The position numbers were made by a program, and so were the translations under genes. Below the pieces are notes generated by a model that searched no databases, was not told the DNA's origin, and saw only the letters and a program-made list of their open reading frames with translations. A DNA stretch of 64,000 nucleotides from Candidatus Phaeomarinobacter ectocarpi (GTDB taxonomy: Bacteria; Pseudomonadota; Alphaproteobacteria; CGMCC-115125), in assembly GCF_000689395.1 (NCBI RefSeq), contig NZ_HG966617.1:3260721-3324720 (forward strand), written 5' to 3'. Positions within the stretch are counted from its first letter, which is position 1; every line of letters begins with the position of its first letter. This document shows positions 17,313 to 35,574 of the stretch, piece by piece.

Positions 17313-18206
17313 CTAGATCTTGCCGTTCGCCAGACGACGGCAGATCTCGTCGAGTTGCTCAAGCGTCTTGTAATTGATCAGCACCTTGCCGCCGGTATCA
17401 CCCTTGTGGTCAATCGACACCGCCAGCCCCAGAGAATCCGCGATATTGCGCTCCAGGGATTTGGTGTCCGCGTCTTTCTCGGCAGAAACACTCGCCTTTT
17501 TGGCCTTAACCGCCTTGAACGGCTTCTTGCCCAGCGCTTCGGCTTCCCGCACCGACAGGCCATCGGCGATGATCTGCTTGGCAAGCGCCACCGCATCATC
17601 ATGGCCCATGATCGCGCGGGCATGGCCGGCGCTCAGGTCACCGGCGGCGAGGAAGCCGCGGACTTTCTTGGGCAGCGAACGGAGTCGCAATGTATTGGCA
17701 ACATGGCTGCGACTCTTGCCGATGAGTTTGGAGACATCGGCCTGGGTGTAGCTGAACTCCTCCATCAGCCGGTCATAGCCATCGGCTTCTTCAATCGGAT
17801 TGAGGTCGGCACGCTGGACGTTTTCGATGATCGCGATTTCGAGGGTCTCAGCATCACTGAGATCCCTAACCACCACCGGCACCCGATCAAGCTTCGCAGC
17901 CTGGGCAGCCCGCCAGCGCCGTTCACCGGCAACAATCTCGAATGAGTTCGTCGCGCCTGAAACCGGCCGCACAACGATAGGCTGAATGACCCCCTTCTCG
18001 GCGACAGAGGCGGTCAGATCGGCCAGGTCTTCCTTCGTGAAATCACGACGTGGCTGAAACGGGTTGGCCTTCAAAAATTCGATCGGGACCGTGTTGGGGC
18101 TGATGGTCGCCGCAGGCTGACCACGCTTGTCCGCCGGCGCGTCGTCTCCGATCAGAGCCGCAAGCCCGCGTCCCAGTCCGCGTCGTTTTCCCTCGTCTGC
18201 CGCCAT
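17313..18206 (-). CDS. parB: Chromosome partitioning protein ParB (parS-binding CTPase)
   Basis: 297 residues. The CTP-binding domain has PVVGERRWRAAQAAKLDRVPVVVRDLSD (with GERR near residue 115), the adjacent central HTH has YTQADVSKLIGKSRSHVANTLRLR, and the C-terminus has the dimerisation helix LEQLDEICRRLANGKI. ParB loads at parS and slides along DNA, organising the origin region with ParA. The parA gene lies 126 bases upstream, and two perfect parS sites are at 19828 and 21914. A basic N-terminal tail (KRRGLGRGLAALIGDD) carries the ParA-stimulating segment. Confidence 0.98.
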   Translation of the reverse strand: MAADEGKRRGLGRGLAALIGDDAPADKRGQPAATISPNTVPIEFLKANPFQPRRDFTKEDLADLTASVAEKGVIQPIVVRPVSGATNSFEIVAGERRWRAAQAAKLDRVPVVVRDLSDAETLEIAIIENVQRADLNPIEEADGYDRLMEEFSYTQADVSKLIGKSRSHVANTLRLRSLPKKVRGFLAAGDLSAGHARAIMGHDDAVALAKQIIADGLSVREAEALGKKPFKAVKAKKASVSAEKDADTKSLERNIADSLGLAVSIDHKGDTGGKVLINYKTLEQLDEICRRLANGKI

Positions 18207-18332: not shown

Positions 18333-19241
18333 TCAGGCAGCGGCGTGCTTGATATCCCGCTCGCGCTGAATGAGCTCGGACGCCAGTTTCATATAGGCTT
18401 TGGAGCCTGCACATTTGTAGTCATAGACAAGTGCCGGTTTGCCAAAACTGGGCGCCTCGGAGATGCGCACATTGCGCGGGATCACCGTGCGGTAAACCTT
18501 GTCGCCCATATATTCGCGCACGTCGGCGGCCACCTGATCAGACAGATTGTTCCGCTTGTCGAACATGGTCAGCACGATGCCCTGAATCTCAAGATCAGGA
18601 TTGAGGCTCGTCCGCACCCGCTCGACGGTGTGCAGCAGCTGGCTCAACCCTTCGAGCGCGAAGAACTCGCACTGAAGGGGAACCAGAATGGCGTCCGCTG
18701 CAACCATGGCATTGATCGTCAGCAGATTGAGCGATGGCGGGCAATCCACCAGAACATATGAGTATGCGCGGCCTGCTTCAGATGAGGTGAAAGCATCCAG
18801 CGCATTGTCGAGGCGGTGCGAGCGCTGCTCGAAATCAGCCAGCTCGAGTTCTGCGCCCAGCAGATCCATGGAGGACGCAACAAGTGACAGACCCGGAACG
18901 GTCGTCTCGATCGTCGCGTCCTTGATTTCAGCTTCGCCGATCAGCACCTCGTAGGCCGTCACCGGACGGCTGTTGCGATCAACACCCAGACCGGTCGACG
19001 CGTTGCCCTGGGGGTCAAGATCGACAACCAGCACCCGCTCGCCGACAGCGGCCAGCGCGGTGCCCAGATTGATGGCTGTGGTGGTCTTGCCGACGCCGCC
19101 TTTCTGGTTGGCCAGAACAAGCACCCGAGGCTCCCCCGGCTGGACCGCAGCGCGGATCGCAGACAGGTCAATCGGCGTGGTGTCAGACCGGCCTGCAGCA
19201 GGTGTTGAATTCTGATCAGTTGGCTGTTTCGGCGCGGACAC
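18333..19241 (-). CDS. parA: Chromosome partitioning ATPase ParA
   Basis: Walker-type ATPase that binds nonspecific DNA and pulls ParB-parS complexes. Deviant Walker A is NQKGGVGKTTTAINLG, followed by VDLDPQGNASTGLG and VDCPPSLNLLTINAM. I chose the GTG at 19241 (302 residues) because GGAGG lies nine bases upstream; an earlier ATG at 19298 would overlap rsmG more deeply. The reading frame overlaps the end of rsmG by 26 bases, showing translational coupling. ParB follows on the same strand. Confidence 0.97.
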   Translation of the reverse strand: MSAPKQPTDQNSTPAAGRSDTTPIDLSAIRAAVQPGEPRVLVLANQKGGVGKTTTAINLGTALAAVGERVLVVDLDPQGNASTGLGVDRNSRPVTAYEVLIGEAEIKDATIETTVPGLSLVASSMDLLGAELELADFEQRSHRLDNALDAFTSSEAGRAYSYVLVDCPPSLNLLTINAMVAADAILVPLQCEFFALEGLSQLLHTVERVRTSLNPDLEIQGIVLTMFDKRNNLSDQVAADVREYMGDKVYRTVIPRNVRISEAPSFGKPALVYDYKCAGSKAYMKLASELIQRERDIKHAAA

Positions 19242-19878
19242 GGGCAAGCTCCTCCAGCTTGAGTATGACCCCATCCCCGGCGGTAATACTTGGGGCATGA
19301 GAGGCCTTAATCGTCCAACATTTTGCGGCCTCGGTCAATTCCAACACTACATCTCGTCCCTTCATAAAGAGACCCGTGGAATCCTGTGACCAAAAGGGCG
19401 CAATCATTTCGAGCAGTTTTGGCAGCGGCGCTACCGCCCGCGCCGAGATCACATCGGGGTATCCGCCCACTCGTTCGACAACATTTTCAGCCGCCTTTTC
19501 GACCCGCATCGGCAGCACCCGAACGGGTGCTTTCGTCTGTGCAATGACAGTCTGCAGAAAGGCGCATTTGCGGGTGTCGCTTTCGATCAGAACAGCTTCC
19601 GCACCCGGATGAGTTTCCATCATCATGATGCCCATCACGAGACCCGGGAAGCCGGCCCCGCTGCCCACATCAAGCCACAGCTTTATATCGTCCGGCGCGT
19701 GCGCCAGCAGCTGGGCTGAATCTGCAAAGTGCCGCTCCCATGCCGTATCCACCGTGGACGGCGCCACGAGGTTGATGGACGCCTGCCATTTGACGAGCAA
19801 CGCCCGATAGATCTCGAGCCGTTCGTGTGTTTCACGTGAAACAGCAGCCAGGCCGGAAAGGGATTCTACGTCAGTCAC
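19216..19878 (-). CDS. rsmG: 16S rRNA 7-methylguanosine methyltransferase RsmG (GidB)
   Basis: About 220 residues. It methylates G527 of 16S rRNA. Motifs: LWLDVGSGAGFPGLVMGIM for S-adenosylmethionine binding, LIESDTRKCAFLQTVIAQT, and VISARAVAPLPKLLEM. I favour the GTG at 19878; a GTG at 19896 is possible but sits inside a perfect DnaA box. The gene carries a perfect parS site (19828-19843) as coding sequence near its start. It follows mnmG and precedes parA, as in most proteobacteria. Confidence 0.95.
   Translation of the reverse strand: MTDVESLSGLAAVSRETHERLEIYRALLVKWQASINLVAPSTVDTAWERHFADSAQLLAHAPDDIKLWLDVGSGAGFPGLVMGIMMMETHPGAEAVLIESDTRKCAFLQTVIAQTKAPVRVLPMRVEKAAENVVERVGGYPDVISARAVAPLPKLLEMIAPFWSQDSTGLFMKGRDVVLELTEAAKCWTIKASHAPSITAGDGVILKLEELARVRAETAN
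19828..19843. other. parS site 1 (perfect palindrome)
   Basis: TGTTTCACGTGAAACA matches the canonical parS 16-mer exactly. It lies within the first codons of rsmG, 46 bases from a perfect DnaA box. It is the nucleation site for ParB sliding clamps. Confidence 0.97.
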
Positions 19879-19888
19879 TTGCAGACCT

Positions 19889-19897
19889 TTATCCACA
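19889..19897 (+). promoter_or_regulatory. Perfect DnaA box at the rsmG start
   Basis: TTATCCACA, the exact DnaA consensus, overlaps the outer candidate start codon of rsmG. It may allow DnaA control of rsmG-parAB or help origin-region organisation. Confidence 0.75.
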
Positions 19898-21825: not shown

Positions 21826-21888
21826 GGGAGCGGTGCATAGCGCAATCAAGCGGCGAACTAAAGGACGCAGACAGGGGAGCAGCCATCT

Positions 21889-21897
21889 TTATCCACA
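21889..21897 (+). promoter_or_regulatory. Perfect DnaA box upstream of mnmG
   Basis: TTATCCACA in the 196-base gap between mnmE and mnmG, 17 bases from parS site 2. With the TTAA array nearby, this gap looks like a cell-cycle control region. Confidence 0.75.
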
Positions 21898-21913
21898 GCT
21901 TTGGACTCCATTT

Positions 21914-21929
21914 GTTTCACGTGAAACAT
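21914..21929. other. parS site 2 (perfect palindrome)
   Basis: TGTTTCACGTGAAACA, identical to site 1, intergenic between mnmE and mnmG. The two sites are 2.07 kb apart and about 12.6-14.6 kb from the putative origin, a usual distance in alphaproteobacteria. Confidence 0.97.
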
Positions 21930-21984
21930 TGAGGCCCGGTGGCTGTGAATCATCGGCAGTACGCCATGAAACACATGGACCGGG

Positions 21985-22020
21985 TTAAGGCGCCGTTAAC
22001 ACCCGTTAACAACCCTTAAC
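21985..22020. promoter_or_regulatory. Helically phased TTAA array with a CtrA-type site
   Basis: TTAA occurs at 21985, 21996, 22006 and 22016, steps of 11, 10 and 10 bases. The first two form TTAA-N7-TTAAC, the full CtrA consensus; the others are TTAAC half-sites with six-base gaps. The array lies about 160 bases upstream of the mnmG start and ends two bases from the mnmE stop. CtrA control is inferred from the motif. Confidence 0.6.
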
Positions 22021-22021
22021 T

Positions 22022-32129: not shown

Positions 32130-33152
32130 TTACGCGGCTGCTTTTGCCGGACATTTGCCGCAGGTGCCAGGACATATCCGTCTGCCACCCGCAGGCGCCA
32201 CACCGTCCCCGGCCCCCAGCACGGCGGCTTTCAGCGCCTCGACATAATGCGGGTTTGTGCCCAGCGCAGGTACCCGCTTGTAGGACACAACACCTGCTTT
32301 TTCTGCCAGCTCGGCATATTCGATATCAAGCTCGACCAGGGTCTCGGAATGCTCAGAGACAAACGCGATCGGCACAACGACAAGTGACTTGCCCTCCTGG
32401 CCTGCCCGCTCAATCTCATCATCGGTCGACGGCCCGATCCACTCCAGCGGACCAACCCGGCTTTGGTAGCAGGTGACGTAGTCAAGGTCTGATTGCCCCA
32501 GGGCCGAGACTGTCGCCGCCACCGTCTGCTCGACCTGCCATTGATAGGGGTCGCCACCGTCGACGACCTTCTTCGGCAGGCCATGCGCGGAGAACAAAAC
32601 CCGGGTATTGGGCTCGGAGACATAGGAGCGGAGCAAATCTGCGTGCGCCGCGACATATATGCGGTCCGTCGGGTAACAACACACAGTTTTCGTGTGCACT
32701 GCAAAATCGTGTTCCCGCGCCTGCTTTTCCCAGTCGAGGACCGACGACCCGGTGGTCGTTGTGGAGAATTGCGGATAGAGCGGCAGCAACGTCACTTCGT
32801 CGGGCCCAAACGCCTTCAATTCGCCGATGGCTTCCGCCGCAAACGGATGCCAGTAGCGCATGGCGATCACGACCTTGAAGTCATCCACGGGATTTTCAGC
32901 GTTCAGGGCCGTTTCCAGCGCAGTTGCCTGGGCCTGAGTCAGCTCTAAAAGCGGCGATTTTCCGCCGATATGCCCATAGATTTCCTGGGCAACCGGCGCC
33001 CGGCGCGTGGAAATCAGTTTTGCGACGAGCCACCGCAATGGCTGCGGCAGACCGATGATCGCCTTGTCGCTGAACAGGTTGAACAGGAACGGCTGCACCG
33101 AGGAAAGCTGGTCCGGTCCGCCCAGATTGAAGAGAACAACAGCGCGTTTCAT
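32130..33152 (-). CDS. hemH: Ferrochelatase
   Basis: 340 residues. It inserts Fe(II) into protoporphyrin IX. Start KRAVVLFNLGGPDQLSSVQPFLFNLFSDKAIIGLP is standard, catalytic His is in LFSAHGLPKKVVDGGDPYQ, and acidic FVSEHSETLVELDIEYAELA lies near 260-280. The C-terminus has CPGTCGKCP (C327, C331, C334), three cysteines close together where some alphaproteobacterial ferrochelatases hold a [2Fe-2S] cluster. Translation is coupled to hemE by a four-base overlap (ATGA). Confidence 0.97.
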   Translation of the reverse strand: MKRAVVLFNLGGPDQLSSVQPFLFNLFSDKAIIGLPQPLRWLVAKLISTRRAPVAQEIYGHIGGKSPLLELTQAQATALETALNAENPVDDFKVVIAMRYWHPFAAEAIGELKAFGPDEVTLLPLYPQFSTTTTGSSVLDWEKQAREHDFAVHTKTVCCYPTDRIYVAAHADLLRSYVSEPNTRVLFSAHGLPKKVVDGGDPYQWQVEQTVAATVSALGQSDLDYVTCYQSRVGPLEWIGPSTDDEIERAGQEGKSLVVVPIAFVSEHSETLVELDIEYAELAEKAGVVSYKRVPALGTNPHYVEALKAAVLGAGDGVAPAGGRRICPGTCGKCPAKAAA

Positions 33153-34210
33153 CGGTTGCGCACCCTTTCCACCACCTGACCCACATGCTCCGGCGGCGTC
33201 TGCGGCACAATGCCGTGGCCCAGATTGAACACGAAAGGCTTGCCATCAAACGCTTCGATGATCGTATCCACCGCCTTCAGCATCTTGTCGCCGCCGGCCA
33301 CCAGCAGCAGCGGATCAAGATTGCCCTGGCAGACCGTTTTGTCCGCCAGCTCAGCGACAGCCCATGACAGCGGCACCGATGGATCAAGACCCACCGCATC
33401 AACCGCGGTCTCAGCCACATAACGCGGCAACAGGGGGCCTGCCCCTTTAGGGAAGCCAATGATGGGTACTGTCACCCCAAGCGCTCTGAGACGCTCAACC
33501 AGCGCCTTTGTCGGCGCAATGGACCAGCGGGCGAACTCATCCTCCGGCAGCACGCCGGACCACGTATCGAACAGCTGCAGGATGTCAGCACCTGCCTGCA
33601 CCTGACGCAGCAGATACTGCGCGGTGGATTCCACCAGCACATCCATTAGCGCTTCAAACGCGTCGCGCTGCTGATAGGCAAACAGCCGCGCAGGCGCCTG
33701 ATCTGGCGTACCCCGCCCGGCAATCATGTAGGTCGCAACCGTCCAGGGCGATCCGGCAAAGCCGATAAGATCTGTTTCACCCGGCAGCGATGACCGCAGG
33801 ATGGACACCGTCTCATAGATGGAAGACAGGGCATCGGCTGCCCCATCCACATCGAGGGCTGCAACCGCTTTGCCATCTTCGAGCGGCTCAAGCCGTGGAC
33901 CTTCGCCGGTTTCAAACCAGAGCTTTTGTCCCAGCGCCTGGGGAATGAGCAGAATGTCCGCAAACAGGATCGACGCATCAAAGCCATAGCGCCGGATCGG
34001 CTGAAGGGTCACTTCACTGGCAAGCTTCGGGTCAAAGCAAAGATCAAGAAAGCCGCCCGCCTTCTCCCGCGTTTCACGATACTCGGGAAGATACCGCCCG
34101 GCCTGGCGCATGAGCCATACGGGAGGAGGTGACATCACCTCTCCCTTGATTGCCTTTAGAAGCCTGCCGTCTGGTCGAGACGCTTGAGAAGTCTTTAGGT
34201 CGCTCGGCAC
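33149..34210 (-). CDS. hemE: Uroporphyrinogen decarboxylase
   Basis: 353 residues; removes four carboxyls from uroporphyrinogen III. Family marks: PVWLMRQAGRYLPEYRETREKAGGFLDLC at 31-60, the central IGFAGSPWTVATYMI, and FNLGHGIVPQTPPEHV near the end. It is the first gene of the hemE-hemH-hemJ set, transcribed away from the candidate origin. In Caulobacter the replication origin directly adjoins hemE, as it does here. Confidence 0.98.
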   Translation of the reverse strand: MPSDLKTSQASRPDGRLLKAIKGEVMSPPPVWLMRQAGRYLPEYRETREKAGGFLDLCFDPKLASEVTLQPIRRYGFDASILFADILLIPQALGQKLWFETGEGPRLEPLEDGKAVAALDVDGAADALSSIYETVSILRSSLPGETDLIGFAGSPWTVATYMIAGRGTPDQAPARLFAYQQRDAFEALMDVLVESTAQYLLRQVQAGADILQLFDTWSGVLPEDEFARWSIAPTKALVERLRALGVTVPIIGFPKGAGPLLPRYVAETAVDAVGLDPSVPLSWAVAELADKTVCQGNLDPLLLVAGGDKMLKAVDTIIEAFDGKPFVFNLGHGIVPQTPPEHVGQVVERVRNR

Positions 34211-34725
34211 GTCACTCTTCCAAACTATGATTCTTACTTAAATAGATGAGGATAGTAGGGGGCAGGGAAAGCGGGGATTGTGGCGCTGTCCCTAAGTCAC
34301 CCCGAGATATAAACCGGTTCGCATGCTGACCCATAGGCCTTGCAGAAAAGACCTGTGGGCAAATGCACCAATCACAGTGACAGTAGGCGAAAGGATTATG
34401 GGGAAAACAGGATCAAGTGACGCAGGCATCCACACTTACCCCCGCAATCCCCGTGTTCAGACCAAACACCACCCTTGTCCATCCACAGACTCATGGAATT
34501 GCCGTTAACACTTCATTAACCCTTGTGATTCACAGGCCCCCGGCTGAAAGCCGAATCTATCCACATAAGCAGGACATCACACATGGCTTATCCCGGAGCC
34601 CAATCTGGCCTGCATGAGCCTGCAGACCGCCAAGTGATGGCTGCCGCAAACCGTGCCAAGCCATTGCCAGCCAAGCTTTAGAGCGGTAACCACGACTGTC
34701 TTTCGTCCTCCAAAGGCTCATCCGC
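34211..34725. other. Putative replication origin (oriC) between hemE and ppsR
   Basis: This 515-base gap is in the same position as the Caulobacter origin (hemE and RP001/DUF299). Genes on its left read leftward and on its right rightward, so transcription leaves it both ways. It has one perfect TTAA-N7-TTAAC site (34505-34520), imperfect DnaA boxes CTATCCACA (34557), GCATCCACA (34426) and CCATCCACA (about 34488), TTGTGATTCACAG, GANTC sites at about 34228 and 34527, and an AT-rich block at its hemE end. No intact DnaA consensus box is seen, so the case rests on synteny and strand switch. Confidence 0.75.
34505..34520. promoter_or_regulatory. CtrA-type site in the putative origin
   Basis: TTAA-CACTTCA-TTAAC matches the full CtrA consensus with a seven-base spacer. 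In Caulobacter CtrA blocks initiation at origin sites of this kind. It lies 37 bases before an imperfect DnaA box. Confidence 0.65.
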
Positions 34726-35574
34726 GTGACCGCACCCACTGCACCCAGTGACAGCAAGTCGTTCTTTCATCTGCATCTCGTGTCTGATTCAACAGGCGAG
34801 ACACTGAATGCTGTGGCGAAAGCCGCGGTTGCCCAGTTTGAGATGGTGCACCCGGTGGAGCACATCTACGCGCTGGTCCGTGGGCCGCGCCAGCTGGATC
34901 GGGTCCTGCGCCAGATTGAGTCCTCGCCCGGCATCGTCATGTTCACCATGGTCAACGACAAGCTGCGGCGGGAACTGGAAACCCGTTGCCGCGAGCTGCA
35001 GATCCCGTGCATTGCCGTACTTGATCCAGTGATGCAGGTACTGGGTGCCTATTTGGGAACCGAGCGCACGGAAAAGCCCGGGTCCCAGCACACATTGGAT
35101 GCTGAATATTTCAGCCGCATCGAAGCGCTGAACTACACCATGGCCCATGACGACGGACAGAACCTGGATACCCTGGAAGAAGCCGACATTGTATTGGTGG
35201 GCGTTAGCCGCACATCGAAAACACCAACATGCATGTATCTGGCAAACCGGGGCATCAAGGCCGCGAATTACCCGCTGGTGCCCGAAGTCCCCGTTCCGCC
35301 TCAGATCGAAGCGCTGGAGTCTCCCCTGGTTGTCGGCCTGGTCGCCTCGCCAGAACGGCTGATGCAGATCCGCCGCCAGCGCCTTTTGTCTCTCAAGGAA
35401 GATTCGCAGACGGACTATGTTGATCTTGACCTGATCCGCAGCGAAGTGACTGCCGCGCGCAGGCTCTATGCTCGCCACGGTTGGCCCATCATCGACGTGA
35501 GCCGCCGCTCCATCGAAGAAACGGCCGCCGCCATTCTCAATCTTCATACCGAACGCCTGGCCCCGTCTGACTAG
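34726..35574 (+). CDS. ppsR: Pyruvate, water (phosphate) dikinase regulatory protein (DUF299)
   Basis: 282 residues with a GTG start. The DUF299 family is a bifunctional Ser/Thr kinase and pyrophosphorylase that switches PEP synthase or pyruvate-phosphate dikinase. Start FFHLHLVSDSTGETLNAVAKAAVAQF, the P-loop-like GVSRTSKTPTCMYLANRGIKAANYPLVPEVPVP, and the end VSRRSIEETAAAIL are the family marks. It lies right of the putative origin, as RP001 does in Caulobacter. It begins the plus-strand run ppsR-maf-aroE-coaE-dnaQ. Confidence 0.95.
   Translation: MTAPTAPSDSKSFFHLHLVSDSTGETLNAVAKAAVAQFEMVHPVEHIYALVRGPRQLDRVLRQIESSPGIVMFTMVNDKLRRELETRCRELQIPCIAVLDPVMQVLGAYLGTERTEKPGSQHTLDAEYFSRIEALNYTMAHDDGQNLDTLEEADIVLVGVSRTSKTPTCMYLANRGIKAANYPLVPEVPVPPQIEALESPLVVGLVASPERLMQIRRQRLLSLKEDSQTDYVDLDLIRSEVTAARRLYARHGWPIIDVSRRSIEETAAAILNLHTERLAPSD

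Follow-up and report, generated by a model that had tools for sequence, protein, structure and literature searches.

In Caulobacter the replication origin, Cori, lies between hemE and the gene for a COG1806 protein (PMC1914354), and its DnaA sites are moderate and weak only (PMC4468827). A passage in PMC6399470 describes DnaA binding at parS in the same organism, where it triggers partitioning at levels too low for initiation. The genome of Candidatus Phaeomarinobacter ectocarpi has been reported as circular, 3.4 Mb in size and oriented by DnaA (PMC4110880). It is a single contig of 3,415,905 bp (C1 in coordinates below) with dnaA at base 118, and the window analysed here is a 64-kb stretch of it, bases 3,260,721-3,324,720. 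The gap between hemE and ppsR in this window is very probably the chromosome replication origin, of the Caulobacter Cori type, and that judgement covers the whole explanation developed below. It is based on position, motifs, conservation, a switch in both strand skew and word polarity, and collinearity with a relative.

The gap and its flanking genes carry the following features, in window coordinates and with the strand where one applies:

33149-34210, minus strand: hemE, left flank of the predicted origin (TIGR01464 match above cut-off)
34211-34725: predicted chromosomal origin, the hemE-ppsR gap (motifs, conservation, skew change point, word polarity)
34211-34260: candidate unwinding region (presumed role), the most A+T-rich 50 bp of the gap at 64% A+T
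within 34211-34260, at the hemE-proximal end: block GATTCTTA..AATAGATGAGGATAGTAGG, conserved in the genus alignment
34229-34233: GANTC site GATTC, invariant in the four gaps of the genus
34488-34492: GANTC site GACTC, invariant in the four gaps of the genus
34505-34519: CtrA-type palindrome TTAACACTTCATTAA, conserved in the genus with one A/G change in congener G001
34527-34531: GANTC site GATTC within TGTGATTCACAG, invariant in the four gaps of the genus
34553-34557: GANTC site GAATC, absent from some congeners
34557-34565, plus strand: DnaA box CTATCCACA, one mismatch, letters varying among congeners
34726-35574, plus strand: ppsR (DUF299 / COG1806), right flank of the predicted origin (NF003742 match above cut-off)

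The gap is 515 bp long (C1:3,294,931-3,295,445) and, as the original prediction had it, hemE is read leftwards and ppsR rightwards. The PpsR protein shares 97% identity with that of Candidatus Phaeomarinobacter, the closest relative with a name. The genes to the left run parB, parA, rsmG, mnmG, mnmE, rho, a UPF0093 gene, hemH, hemE and those to the right ppsR, maf, aroE, coaE, dnaQ, secB, fxsA, an order also known from Caulobacter. The long runs of genes said to follow the same divergence are present nearby, with hemE, hemH, the UPF0093 gene and rho all on the minus strand and ppsR, maf, aroE, coaE and dnaQ all on the plus strand, but the claim was overstated for the window as a whole, where each side has 31 genes, of which 19 conform on the left and 20 on the right.

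The motifs described for the gap were all found. The perfect TTAA-N7-TTAA palindrome placed at 34505 is there (34505-34519); it is one of two in the 64-kb window, against 0.05 expected from shuffling, and the 1.6 Mb of sampled genome contain five in all. Of the imperfect DnaA boxes, one has at most one mismatch, CTATCCACA at 34557. The GANTC sites number four in the 515 bp, compared with 1.93 per kb in intergenic DNA. A perfect CtrA palindrome accompanied by a DnaA box with at most one mismatch occurs in two of the 338 intergenic regions of at least 150 bp in the sampled genome, the hemE-ppsR and mnmE-mnmG gaps. The G+C content of the hemE-ppsR gap is 53%, against 57-62% in its surroundings. 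A search of the gap against plasmids gave no match, and Rfam and tRNA scans over the 64-kb window found nothing.

Conservation was followed across the class and within the genus. Among 107 alphaproteobacterial ppsR loci, hemE adjoins ppsR on the opposite strand in 97, usually with a gap of 0.3-0.7 kb. DnaA boxes with at most one mismatch average 2.06 per gap in these loci and 0.09 after shuffling, an enrichment of about 20-fold, and TGGGGATAA-like words are likewise enriched. The rule that the origin sits between hemE and ppsR is thus backed quantitatively over about a hundred loci of the class. In an alignment of the four gaps of the genus, little or nothing changes in the CtrA palindrome, in TGTGATTCACAG next to it and in the GATTC block near hemE; the third of the gap nearest ppsR varies. 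On both arms, a congener shows collinearity about the gap for 88 of 88 orthologues. Within the GATTC region, AGATTCTTA is a GANTC site set in a wider near-palindrome (34229-34233 in the window) that recurs in 15 of the 97 hemE-ppsR gaps, where 0.3 would be expected.

The position was then compared with signals along the whole chromosome, using sampled stretches that make up 47% of the 3.416-Mb contig. Genes were called on these stretches and third-position skew was computed separately for the two gene strands, so that the coding effect is removed. A skew shift at another locus, such as 21.9 kb, had been named as evidence that would count against the origin; over 470 kb the best change point of the strand-corrected skew lies between hemE and ppsR, with a gain of 99.5 log units, the mnmE-mnmG gap reaching 78.1 and dnaA 52.6. 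When genes were resampled, the 10-90% bootstrap range ran from -32 to +15 kb, so that skew alone resolves the position to tens of kilobases, a range that includes the gap at 21.9 kb. At the hemE-ppsR gap the skew steps from -0.12 up to near zero and stops short of +0.12.

Oriented words give a second measure. GCGGTGG is commoner on the leading strand of both arms (181 vs 84 and 180 vs 47), and a polarity switch at the hemE-ppsR gap ties for best likelihood, although it is better than one at mnmE-mnmG by 2.3 log units only. Between the origin and about 1.37 Mb the KOPS-like word GGGCAGGG is mostly on the plus strand; past there it is almost always on the minus strand, so its polarity switches near the hemE-ppsR gap and back again near a dif-like site, the only match in the genome:

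C1:1341070-1341091: dif-like site CATAATATATATTATGGAAAAT

With this site, at 1.341 Mb, as terminus, GGGCAGGG is polarised on both arms. Taking the point opposite the origin as terminus instead gives a false impression that the word is unpolarised on the right arm. The dif-like site has counterparts in congeners and in more distant relatives. It lies 1.46 Mb clockwise of the origin, 43% of the way round and not opposite, and the left replichore to dif is the longer in three of three genomes (about 57, 55 and 55%). The site was seen to be off-centre in the same direction in G001 and in G010, a member of another family. There is also a second skew change point at C1:1.566-1.59 Mb, near the antipode of the origin and about 0.24 Mb past the dif-like site. 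Taken together, skew, word polarity, congener collinearity and conservation of the gap support the placement of a putative origin between hemE and ppsR.

The original prediction had left the start site open, having noted perfect DnaA boxes at mnmG. The perfect boxes are at 19889 and 21889. Both belong to a group of features on the hemE side of the gap:

17313-18206, minus strand: parB, partition gene
18333-19298, minus strand: parA, partition gene
19828-19843: perfect parS inside rsmG
19889-19897, plus strand: perfect DnaA box, 45 bp from parS
21889-21928, plus strand: predicted centromere in the mnmE-mnmG gap, with a perfect DnaA box and parS
21985-22019: another perfect CtrA-type palindrome, the second in the window, with more TTAA half-sites after it

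The two parS sites are the only perfect ones in the genome, both 13-15 kb to the left of the hemE-ppsR gap, and neither is more than 50 bp from a perfect DnaA box (19889 and 21889). In the mnmE-mnmG gap, the stretch of 40 bp that runs from the DnaA box to parS is the same, letter for letter, in three congeners, and this exact arrangement was not found in the other 253 genera searched. With parS and a perfect DnaA box side by side, the mnmE-mnmG gap resembles a centromere and is predicted to be one. Four TTAA half-sites, one pair of them forming the perfect CtrA palindrome, are clustered at 21985-22019, directly upstream of mnmG and beside parS.

The same gap could be read as the origin itself (21850-22021), with the hemE gap serving merely as a promoter region. 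It combines a perfect DnaA box with a perfect CtrA palindrome, 40 bp of it are kept within the genus, and it falls inside the bootstrap range of the skew change point. Its skew fit is nonetheless 21 log units poorer and, at 172 bp, it is short for an origin. It contains parS, at which DnaA acts in Caulobacter according to the passage mentioned above, and its exact box-parS arrangement has no counterpart in the other 253 genera searched, in contrast to the hemE gap with its class-wide conservation. Perfect boxes at mnmG and poor ones at the origin are in fact the expected pattern, because the boxes of Caulobacter Cori are weak and DnaA acts at parS. An origin at mnmE-mnmG is therefore very improbable. 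An origin at dnaA, the start of the record (C1:118), is scarcely credible: dnaA is the start site in many bacteria and the contig is cut there, but a contig start at dnaA is a convention, the skew fit is 47 log units poorer and the parS pair is 121 kb away.

It might also be argued that the hemE-ppsR gap is a divergent promoter region and nothing else, and that its motifs are the CtrA and GANTC elements of ordinary promoters. Divergent genes do require promoters, and the DnaA box of the gap is weak. That account leaves unexplained the chromosome-wide switch of skew and word polarity at the gap, the enrichment of DnaA boxes in the same gap in many orders and the nearby pair of parS sites, and it is very unlikely to be correct. 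Some observations do count against the origin: the single DnaA box with at most one mismatch and the single perfect CtrA site fall below the numbers reported for Cori, and the right arm is without a mirrored skew. The wide bootstrap range of the skew change point and the small margin of GCGGTGG polarity over mnmE-mnmG weigh on the same side. On the preferred reading, the genus has its origin in the hemE-ppsR gap, 121 kb from where the record conventionally begins and apart from the nearby predicted centromere.

A sequence of events can be proposed for the hemE-ppsR origin, in which the binding and roles of DnaA, CtrA and methylation, as well as their order, are taken over from Caulobacter. DnaA would assemble on the weak boxes in the gap and open its hemE-proximal end, which is rich in A+T. 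Initiation would be restrained by CtrA sitting on the conserved palindrome, and methylation of the GANTC sites may signal replication status. Two forks would then depart from the gap in opposite directions, and ParABS would separate the copied region through the pair of parS sites, which lies 13-15 kb to the left. The perfect DnaA boxes beside parS would probably serve segregation and not initiation.

The predicted origin is thus ordinary for its class; the one-sided skew around it is unexplained. Fourfold-site skew after strand correction is -0.151 (GC) and -0.127 (TA) on the left arm (1.59-3.29 Mb), compared with -0.035 and -0.014 on the right arm (3.295 Mb to 1.34 Mb), with intervals well apart. 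The expected value for the right arm is the mirrored +0.15, and no reversal of sign between the arms was seen. Congener G001 is alike at third positions (GC -0.131 left and -0.07 right; TA -0.124 and -0.004), and G010 has a weaker offset (GC -0.179 and +0.042; TA -0.147 and -0.013). The offset has the same orientation relative to hemE-ppsR in the congener and, more weakly, in G010; a further genome, G012, showed no offset in the same pipeline.

Raw counts of GCGGGCG point the same way. Across whole genomes its two strands carry 612 vs 1245 and 2684 vs 1156 copies in the two single-contig members of the genus, which, in a comparison of 243 alphaproteobacterial genomes, are the most unequal where counts reach at least 400; the ranking is suggestive only, because many of the genomes compared are split into arbitrarily oriented contigs, which evens the counts. 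An imbalance of 7 to 18% was found in six of six members of family f9. Unequal GCGGGCG counts were noted in families f9 and f85, so one-sided skew may extend past the genus.

Several simple causes were considered and set aside. Recent inversion or scrambling of the right arm was rejected: the congener is collinear at all 88 orthologues, KOPS-like words hold their polarity there and the per-gene spread is similar on the two arms (dispersion 2.08 and 2.30). Gene-strand imbalance is removed by the split according to strand, co-orientation being 369 of 633 genes on the right and 366 of 669 on the left. An artefact of the analysis is unlikely, given that G012 lacks the offset in the same pipeline, the congener has it and the raw word counts agree.

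Asymmetric firing, with a dominant leftward fork and a rightward fork that is often late or absent, would, over evolutionary time, have the right arm copied both ways and so leave it with hardly any skew. This fits both the one-sided skew and the longer left replichore to dif. Against it, GC and TA skew in G010 imply different fractions, and word and gene polarity favours rightward forks on the right arm; it is an unlikely explanation. Alternatively, mutational differences specific to the lineage could set the arms apart, or a rearrangement could have taken place long ago and partly relaxed since. No report of one-sided skew on a main chromosome was found in the literature searched. It breaks the expectation of mirrored strand bias on both replichores, and a plain cumulative GC-skew plot could misplace the origin in such genomes. 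It also offers a natural test of the causes of skew.

The closest known system is Cori of Caulobacter crescentus (PMC1914354, PMC4468827), and the original prediction was right that the predicted origin sits in the same place, between hemE and COG1806 (PMC1914354). The two share their flanking genes and orientation, an A+T-rich end, a CtrA palindrome, DnaA boxes that are apparently weak and, on the side of hemE, parS at a distance of no more than about 15 kb. They differ in that there is one perfect CtrA site here and five are reported there, and in that parS is 13-15 kb away here and about 8 kb away there. The origins of Rickettsia (hemE/COG1806) and Wolbachia (hemE/COG1253) are predictions too, made from gaps that adjoin hemE and contain DnaA and CtrA sites (PMC1914354); unlike those predictions, the present one has added support from chromosome-wide skew, word polarity and dif.

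The Caulobacter centromere, as Mera et al. 2014 is cited in PMC6399470, also has a DnaA box beside a parS near the origin, as seen here at 19.8 and 21.9 kb of the window. The difference is that the box here is perfect and its 40-bp arrangement conserved exactly in this genus only, and that binding is predicted. For the one-sided skew alone, a parallel is provided by the unidirectionally replicated chromids of Pseudoalteromonas (PMC7858055), whose skew is likewise unmirrored between arms. In those chromids, however, dif adjoins ori, whereas here 43% of the circle separates the dif-like site from the origin. On this chromosome both arms show polarity in KOPS-like words and in gene orientation, which favours bidirectional replication.
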